Origin: SAR86 cluster bacterium
GTDB taxonomy: Bacteria > Pseudomonadota > Gammaproteobacteria > Magnimaribacterales > Magnimaribacteraceae
Assembly: GCA_029268615.1 (NCBI GenBank)
Contig: JAQWNM010000007.1
Coordinates: forward strand, 62,001-126,000
Length of the DNA: 64,000 nucleotides
Reading direction: 5' to 3'
Shown here piece after piece: positions 37,512 to 40,078 of the stretch. Below the pieces are notes generated by a model that saw only the letters and a list, made by a program, of their open reading frames with translations, searched no databases and was not told where the DNA came from. Each line of letters opens with the position of its first letter. Positions within the stretch are counted from its first letter, which is position 1. The position numbers and the translations under genes are program-made.

Positions 37512-38864
37512 ATGAAAAAGTACTTTCTTCTAATAATATTTTTTGCGTTACTTAGTTGCTCAGAAGATCATGACTCAAGACAAGGAGATTTTGAAGTATT
37601 TAAAAGTACTTATGTTCCTGAAAAGAATGTTGATTTTATTATAAAGGGAGCTCGAATCCTAACAGGCACTGGTAAGGAAATTTTAGATGGTTTTATTTGG
37701 GTCTCAGAAAATAAAATAAAAGATATCGGAGAGACCAATGATATGCCAGAAGGTATTAGAGTAATATCAGGCGAAGGTAAATGGGTAACACCGGGGATAA
37801 TAGATATCCATTCACATATGGGGGTATATCCTTCTCCTTCCTTGAAAGGTAACTCAGATGGAAATGAGGCAACGAATCCAGTGACTTCTCATGTTTGGGC
37901 TGAACATTCTGTATGGACTCAGGATCCTCAAATGCCTTTAGCACTCAAAGGAGGCATCACTACTTTTCATGTTTTGCCAGGTTCTGCTAATTTATTCGGC
38001 GGGAGAGGAGTTACTCTAAAAAATGTTTGGTCTACAACTGTTCAAGGGATGAAATTTCCTGGAGCGCCATATACTTTAAAGATGGCCTGTGGAGAAAACC
38101 CAAAAAGAGTTTACGGAAGGAGAAAAGGTACTGAGCCTTCAACTAGGATGGGAAATGTTGCAGGTTACAGGAATGCTTGGATAGATGCTGTTAATTACTC
38201 GGATAAAACCAATTTAAAAAGAGATTTAAAATTAGATACTTTAGCAGGCGTTTTAAATGGAGAGATTTTAGTTCAGAATCATTGCTATAGAGCTGAAGAG
38301 ATGGCTATTATGTTAGACATATCTAAGGAATTTGGCTATAAAGTTACAGCTTTCCATCATGCAATAGAAGCTTATAAGGTAGCAAATTTATTGTCAGAAA
38401 ATGATGTTTGTGCAGCAATGTGGGCAGACTGGTGGGGTTTTAAAAATGAAGCTTTTGATATGGTTTGGGAGAATGTTGCAATAGTAGATCAGGCAAATGA
38501 AGGAAAAGGTTGCGCTATTGTTCATTCAGATTCTGCAATAGGAATTCAAAGATTAAATCAAGAAGCTGCAAAGGCAATGGCAGCAGGTAGAAGAGCTGGA
38601 CTAGATATACCTAGATCAAGAGCTATTCAGTGGATTACTAGGAATCCAGCCAAGGCTTTAGGTATTCTTGATAGAGTCGGTACTATTGAAAAAGGCAAGA
38701 TGGCAGATTTAGTTCTTTGGGATAGTGATCCTTTTAGCGTCTATAGTAAAACAGAGAGGGTATTTATCGATGGAATTCAAAGATATTTTATATCAGATTC
38801 TTTAACTCCAAAGTCAACAGACTTTGAGTTAGGAATAATTCAACCTGACAAAAATAGATTATGA
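37512..38864 (+). CDS. Amidohydrolase-superfamily lipoprotein with intact metal site
   Basis: 450 residues. The signal peptide ends in the lipobox LLSC (C16), so the protein is probably a lipoprotein. The metal-dependent hydrolase barrel carries H100-x-H102 (IIDIHSHMG), H257 (QNHCYR), H282/H283 (AFHHAIEA) and D340 (VHSDSAIG). ITRNPAKALGI and KGKMADLVLWDSDPF close the barrel as in imidazolonepropionase-like enzymes. Substrate unknown; a cyclic amide or dipeptide outside the cytoplasm is plausible. Its stop overlaps the next, paralogous gene (ATGA). Confidence 0.85.
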   Translation: MKKYFLLIIFFALLSCSEDHDSRQGDFEVFKSTYVPEKNVDFIIKGARILTGTGKEILDGFIWVSENKIKDIGETNDMPEGIRVISGEGKWVTPGIIDIHSHMGVYPSPSLKGNSDGNEATNPVTSHVWAEHSVWTQDPQMPLALKGGITTFHVLPGSANLFGGRGVTLKNVWSTTVQGMKFPGAPYTLKMACGENPKRVYGRRKGTEPSTRMGNVAGYRNAWIDAVNYSDKTNLKRDLKLDTLAGVLNGEILVQNHCYRAEEMAIMLDISKEFGYKVTAFHHAIEAYKVANLLSENDVCAAMWADWWGFKNEAFDMVWENVAIVDQANEGKGCAIVHSDSAIGIQRLNQEAAKAMAAGRRAGLDIPRSRAIQWITRNPAKALGILDRVGTIEKGKMADLVLWDSDPFSVYSKTERVFIDGIQRYFISDSLTPKSTDFELGIIQPDKNRL

Positions 38865-40078
38865 TATTGAAGATATTTATCAATATTCTGCTTTATTTAA
38901 TTATTAGCTGTTCTTTACAAGCTTCAGAATTTCTTATAAAAAATGCAAAGATTCATACTACTTCTCTAGGTTTTATTGAAGGAGCTGATTTACATATTAA
39001 AGAAGGAAAAATTATTAATATTTCTAAAAATATAATAGTATCTGGAATTGATAAAATAGATGCGGAAGGTAACTTTTTAACCCCAGGTTTTCTAGCTCCA
39101 CTAACGCAAATAGGACTTGTAGAAATTGAGTTAGAACCAAACACTAGAGATGATAGCTCTAAGTATTATTCTTCAGGCCTAGGTATTTCTAAGGCCTATA
39201 ATCCATCTTCCTCTTTAATACCCTACAACCTTAGAGGCGGAATAACCACTTCTTTATCGTCACCAAGTTTTGGAAAGAATTTGTTTTCAGGCTTAATATC
39301 AGCTTTTTCTCTAACAAGCTCTTTAGAGAAAAGTTTAATAAAAAGAGATATAGGATTAATAGCTAGGATTGGTGGCGGAGAAGATTCTAGAGCTGCTAAT
39401 ATTTTAATGTTAGAAGATTCTTTTCTTCAGGCAAAGAAATACATACTTTCTGGTAAATTAGAAGAACATTTTAAACCAGATAAAATATCTTTTTCAACTA
39501 GAGATATTAAATCTATATCTAGAGTTCTCTCTAGAGAAATACCTTTGATTGTCCATGCAAATAGAGCCTCAGATATATTAGCTTTGATTGATTTATCAAA
39601 AGAATTTGAAATTAATTTAATAATAGCTGGAGCAAAAGAAGGATGGAGAGTAGCTGAGAGTTTAATGAAAGCAAAAGTACCTGTAATCATCCAACCAATA
39701 GATAACTTGCCAAGTTCTTTTGATGAGATAGCAGCTTCTTTAGATAATGCAGCAAAACTGCACGAAGCGGGTGTTAAGATTCTTATCTCTTCTCATGAAA
39801 CACATAATGCTTATTTAAGTAGACAGGGAGCAGGGATAGCAGTTTCATATGGGTTACCTTGGCATGTGGCGATAGATGCGCTATCTAAAAATATTGCTGA
39901 ATCTTTCTCATTAAATTCTATAGGTTCAATAGAAATTGGTAAAACAGCTGACTTTATAATATGGAGTGAAGATCCTCTAGAGGTGACTGCGTTTGCTGAA
40001 CGTATTTTTATTTCAGGAAATGAGATGCCTGTTATGACTCGTTCATTAAGGCTAAGAGATAGGTATTTAAAGGAATAA
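38861..40078 (+). CDS. Amidohydrolase paralogue with degenerate metal site
   Basis: 405 residues, paralogous to its upstream neighbour and coupled by a four-base overlap. The signal peptide has a possible lipobox (IISC, C17). The shared barrel features remain: FLTPGF at 72-77, GGITTSL, SRQGAGIAVSYGLPW and IGKTADFIIWSEDPL. The metal ligands do not: H-x-H has become L81-x-Q83, only H232 (VHANR) is kept, the second His position reads GAKEGW, and the Asp region reads SHETHN. Probably a non-catalytic partner or pseudoenzyme (inference). Confidence 0.82.
   Translation: MILKIFINILLYLIISCSLQASEFLIKNAKIHTTSLGFIEGADLHIKEGKIINISKNIIVSGIDKIDAEGNFLTPGFLAPLTQIGLVEIELEPNTRDDSSKYYSSGLGISKAYNPSSSLIPYNLRGGITTSLSSPSFGKNLFSGLISAFSLTSSLEKSLIKRDIGLIARIGGGEDSRAANILMLEDSFLQAKKYILSGKLEEHFKPDKISFSTRDIKSISRVLSREIPLIVHANRASDILALIDLSKEFEINLIIAGAKEGWRVAESLMKAKVPVIIQPIDNLPSSFDEIAASLDNAAKLHEAGVKILISSHETHNAYLSRQGAGIAVSYGLPWHVAIDALSKNIAESFSLNSIGSIEIGKTADFIIWSEDPLEVTAFAERIFISGNEMPVMTRSLRLRDRYLKE

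Follow-up and report, generated by a model that had tools for sequence, protein, structure and literature searches.

Two overlapping genes in the window, the 64,000-nucleotide stretch of a SAR86 cluster bacterium contig (JAQWNM010000007.1) analysed here, encode an exported amidohydrolase with an intact metal site (A) and an exported amidohydrolase barrel from which the metal site has been lost (B). Judging from comparisons of the sequences, we consider it probable (about 0.65) that B is a conserved non-catalytic subunit, acting as scaffold or activator of A in a periplasmic heteromer. This reading draws on the counts of metal ligands, dN/dS values, gene linkage, co-occurrence, the separation of A and B into distinct clades, and the existence of fusions, as well as on the finding that the old ligand columns are among the most variable in B while a B-specific C-terminal helix is conserved.

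An intact and a degenerate barrel

Gene A (37512..38864, + strand) encodes a lipoprotein amidohydrolase of 450 aa, with the N-terminus MKKYFLLIIFFALLSC and the lipobox LLSC. The protein matched PF01979 (Amidohydro_1; 8.4e-17, 61.9 bits against a curated cut-off of 25) and aligned over its full length with 3ooq, an amidohydrolase of Thermotoga that was its closest sequence (4.8e-61). Its ligands are H100-x-H102 on beta1 (37809..37817), H257 on beta5 (38280..38282), H283 on beta6 (38358..38360), and D340 on beta8 (38529..38531). In the joint alignment used for ligand counts (144 A sequences, 147 B sequences, and 3ooq), the two beta1 histidines were kept in 141-142 of 144 A sequences with gaps in the remainder, H257 and H283 in all 144, and the Asp in 143, the remaining one being X. 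All five ligands were present together in 140 of the A sequences; gaps or an X accounted for the remaining four. These results agree with the sequence-only reading, which had described the first protein as a lipoprotein with a complete HxH/H/H/D site. Among the matches listed for A, no curated NCBIfam function cut-off was reached, and the score for Xaa-Pro dipeptidase (NF051886) was 60 bits against a cut-off of 500. The structure model of A had a pLDDT of 68.8, was poor at residues 101-178, and was left out of the fold claims.

Gene B (38861..40078, + strand) encodes a 405-aa protein carrying a Sec-type signal at its N-terminus, as expected from the earlier claim that it is exported. It matched PF01979 more weakly than A did (2.1e-10, 40.9 bits against the cut-off of 25), and its closest sequence was also 3ooq, which it matched over its length (5.5e-32). 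An AlphaFold2 model of B built from 20 relatives had a mean pLDDT of 89.6, and 3ooq was the nearest solved fold (Z 44.9, rmsd 2.3 over 357 residues; next at Z 26) in a comparison that took in only chains ranked high by Foldseek. As modelled, B is a whole amidohydrolase barrel.

At the columns of the five A ligands (H100, H102, H257, H283, and D340), B has L81, Q83, H232, G257, and H312. The place of HxH is taken by L81-T-Q83 (39101..39109), where His was found in 4 and 9 of 147 B sequences at the two positions; at the beta6 His place, G257 (39629..39631) is Gly in 130 of 147 and His in 2; and the Asp place holds H312, followed by a B-specific T314-H315-N316 motif (39794..39808), with Asp in 8 of 147. 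The alignment with 3ooq thus confirms the replacement of HxH by L81-x-Q83 and the loss of the second His and the Asp that had been noticed at the outset. The further claim that B keeps only H232 (39554..39556, at the beta5 ligand column) was correct for this protein, in which it is the sole ligand match; it is not a conserved remnant, since His occurs there in just 14 of 147 B sequences, and a functional role for it as a remnant was rejected. The number of ligands kept per B sequence was none in 116, one in 25, two in 6, and three or more in 0, so that all 147 relatives have at most two of five and the degenerate site is shared across homologous pairs, a point that the sequence-only reading had proposed to check. 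Its other concern, a re-alignment in which different His or Asp residues restore the site, was not borne out: no cluster of other conserved His/Asp was seen in the B alignments. The B proteins of two loci (L112 and L091) retained an HxH-like motif, and the other three ligands were all absent from them.

In B, variability at four of the five old ligand positions was in the 90th-99th percentile, and the beta6 Gly was conserved. Conservation in B was found at E88, N114, P284, G325, G331, D371, L373, E374, and H315-N316, and in a C-terminal helix (40040..40066; R394...L398..R401-Y402), which is absent from A and is helical in the model. These patterns bear on two other roles for B. In the first, a hand-off role that the sequence-only reading had also put forward, B would bind substrate or product in its metal-free barrel and pass it to A. 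Both the retention of a full-length barrel and the conservation of two features close to the former site, the beta6 Gly and H315-N316, are consistent with this. However, of the 37 columns that are nearly invariant in A, B retains only 8, which would be unexpected for a pocket conserved for the same ligand, and hand-off is less favored for the old pocket because four of its five ligand columns vary freely. We therefore consider hand-off rather unlikely, and its operation via a different pocket of B possible. Alternatively, B might still be an enzyme of the same pathway as A with other or metal-free chemistry, for which the B-specific or B-conserved polar residues E88, D97, N114, H315, N316, D371, and E374 could be candidates. 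This appears improbable, as no conserved set of the typical metal-binding kind replaces the lost site in the alignments.

Selection on B and its linkage to A

Pairwise dN/dS values among close relatives (Nei-Gojobori, several pairs having high dS) were 0.05-0.18 for B and 0.03-0.12 for A. Purifying selection acts on B. Median identity was 38% for B versus 57% for A, B being the faster-evolving protein. In a tree of 107 domains, built by a quick method and with the root not fixed, A (35 rows) and B (35 rows) each lay on one side of a branch with SH-aLRT values of 99 and 100; the intact proteins that stand alone in Thermotoga, Bacillota, and an actinomycete grouped with A. Since A and B form separate clades, the degeneracy of the site is ancestral and predates the spread of B. 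Which came first, duplication or site loss, is inferred, because the tree has no fixed root.

The loss of the metal site and the faster evolution would both be expected if B were a decaying copy, a pseudogene in progress. Nevertheless, its dN/dS lies well under 1, its frames are open in the relatives that were read, where a frameshifted or deleted second gene had been named as a possible refutation, and the degeneracy is ancestral to the entire clade. On the low dN/dS and the separate degenerate clade, decay was rejected, and its probability is negligible. The original argument against simple decay is thus upheld by purifying selection and the ancestral degenerate clade, together with the strict linkage to an intact A and the fusions described below. 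In one locus (L043, G226:C11), A was split into two frames beside an intact B, which may be an assembly error.

The two genes, described at the outset as translationally coupled, share an ATGA overlap of 4 nt (38861..38864, + strand) formed by the B start (ATG, 38861-38863) and the A stop (TGA, 38862-38864). A start overlapping the A stop could be called in 127 of 142 related pairs, with exactly 4 nt in 97; this count is an upper estimate because the start nearest the A stop was chosen, and a gap of more than 20 nt was never needed. Of the B loci taken from named contigs and a single plasmid, 81 in all, 80 had A immediately upstream, and the remaining one began 22 bases from the contig edge. 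In the family and order to which the window belongs, 29 of 61 genomes carried both A and B and the rest had neither, apart from a single fragment of B where a contig ends. Across 274 genomes of the class, both genes were present in the same 14, other matches being weak, and among 398 genomes of the phylum a B-like gene scoring >210 bits was found in 62, of the short type in 54. Whole genera in the window's order (groups f1/g7 and f3) were without A and B, and therefore the pair is dispensable and was apparently lost together.

Fused forms and the proposed role of B

Matches at 1e-30 or better were found in 68 of 81 genomes sampled from the phylum of Gemmatimonadaceae and in 40 of 80 from that of Thermoanaerobaculum, and many of them were neighboring pairs. 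Sixteen single ORFs with two or three barrels were read, and all of them had an intact barrel followed by a degenerate barrel. In L208-L210, the alignment column misses the Asp, which is nonetheless present as QTD. A long type of about 1000-1100 aa, found in some genomes, has a degenerate N-terminal and an intact C-terminal barrel and is followed by a separate degenerate B. Although related to the pair in the window, the fused and paired forms of other groups are not in every case its orthologues. These active-dead fusions are the best evidence that both barrels work as one unit. Joint inheritance across many bacterial groups, together with fusions in some genomes, therefore makes B probably a partner subunit rather than a decaying copy. 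Solitary intact relatives occur in Thermotoga, Bacillota, and an actinomycete, and hence the fold as such needs no partner.

Several loci showed further arrangements. One (L208, G806:C4:10500-20500) contained, in order, an intact protein of 412 aa, a degenerate one of 419, an intact one of 416, a degenerate one of 441, and a fused intact-degenerate ORF of 835 aa, that is, three active/dead pairs in tandem, two separate and one fused. A 1419-aa frame in L213 (G841:C21:39500-45500) comprised three barrels in the order degenerate, intact, degenerate. In the fusion of L212 (G819:C10), the second, C-terminal barrel retained two His ligands, the first in HxH and that of beta6, but had lost the Asp; it may represent an intermediate in which erosion has gone less far. 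The second locus of G450 (L104) had a third type of pair, a distant one, in which an intact 478-aa frame preceded a degenerate one with HST for HxH.

The fusions also bear on whether B could have an unrelated periplasmic function and be simply co-transcribed with A. For mutual information between A and B, computed on 144 pairs (effective number 88), a within-clade shuffle reproduced the highest-scoring pairs except A344-B322, which exceeded it but was selected afterwards; covariation largely matched in this way would be compatible with unrelated functions. However, the strict linkage to A in several bacterial groups, the matching absences of the two genes, and the joining of active and degenerate barrels in one polypeptide argue against it, and we assign this explanation a low probability.

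In the subunit model, the favored reading, which corresponds to the catalytic/regulatory heterodimer suggested at the outset, the lipid anchor of A would tether it to its presumptive membrane of residence. There the metal centre would hydrolyse an amide-type substrate; a peptide or a derivative of an amino acid is probable. The pseudo-amidohydrolase encoded by the overlapping downstream gene would join A, and B could stabilise or allosterically activate it or shape its substrate entrance, a role that may be likened to that of the pseudo-dihydroorotase (pDHO) with the aspartate transcarbamoylase (ATCase) of Pseudomonas. The 29 upstream same-strand neighbors include four POT transporters, four SNF symporters, three M16 peptidases, and two M14 peptidases, and in Qipengyuania a peptide MFS transporter lies directly upstream of the pair. 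Unrelated genes, such as those for gyrase and a sigma-54 regulator, were also found. Because the neighbors are so mixed, the link to peptides is weak, and a peptide-type substrate for A is a guess with some support. For the wider family, there is an even chance that two-barrel amidohydrolases of several phyla form a large group, as yet without a name, in which an active barrel depends for its activity on a dead one and is obligately paired with it, in trans or fused.

Comparison with known systems

The uncharacterised 3ooq of Thermotoga maritima resembles A in its intact HHHHD site and is the closest fold for B, from which it differs in possessing the site that B lacks. In the fold comparison for B, COG1228-type peptidases (Xaa-Pro dipeptidase and the Cc2672 carboxypeptidase) ranked among the best after 3ooq (Z about 25), and they provided the best NCBIfam match for A. 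To our knowledge, neither of these two peptidases has a dead partner. In the open literature covered by our searches, we found no description of an active/dead pair within one amidohydrolase family, of its spread, or of its fusions, but only analogues.

Annotations treat tandem amidohydrolase genes as a pair of enzymes, and many are wrong if one member is a dead partner. In that case, assays run on only the active gene may be unsuccessful, and screening for substrates should be done with both genes. In addition, the overlapping genes, fusions, and triple fusions constitute a widely sampled natural set in which to study the route from a duplicated enzyme to an obligate non-catalytic subunit.

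A pseudoenzyme partner, even one of amidohydrolase fold, is already known as a kind. The class A2 ATCase of P. aeruginosa is inactive without its pDHO chain (PMC7053772), and the term "new architecture" used in the sequence-only reading was thus too strong in general. Like B as proposed here, pDHO is an inactive chain of amidohydrolase fold needed for the activity of its partner. B itself does not belong to the pDHO group, as the dihydroorotase models scored far below their cut-offs and its neighbor is an amidohydrolase. Furthermore, the partner of pDHO is a transcarbamoylase of another fold, whereas B is paired with an active enzyme from its own amidohydrolase family, both proteins being exported. 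In trypanosomes, AdoMetDC (with its prozyme) and deoxyhypusine synthase are partnered by dead paralogues whose activating effect has been shown (PMC5201418, PMC3663545). Both systems resemble A and B in combining an active enzyme with a dead paralogue, but they involve other folds and organisms, and for A and B the activation is a prediction.
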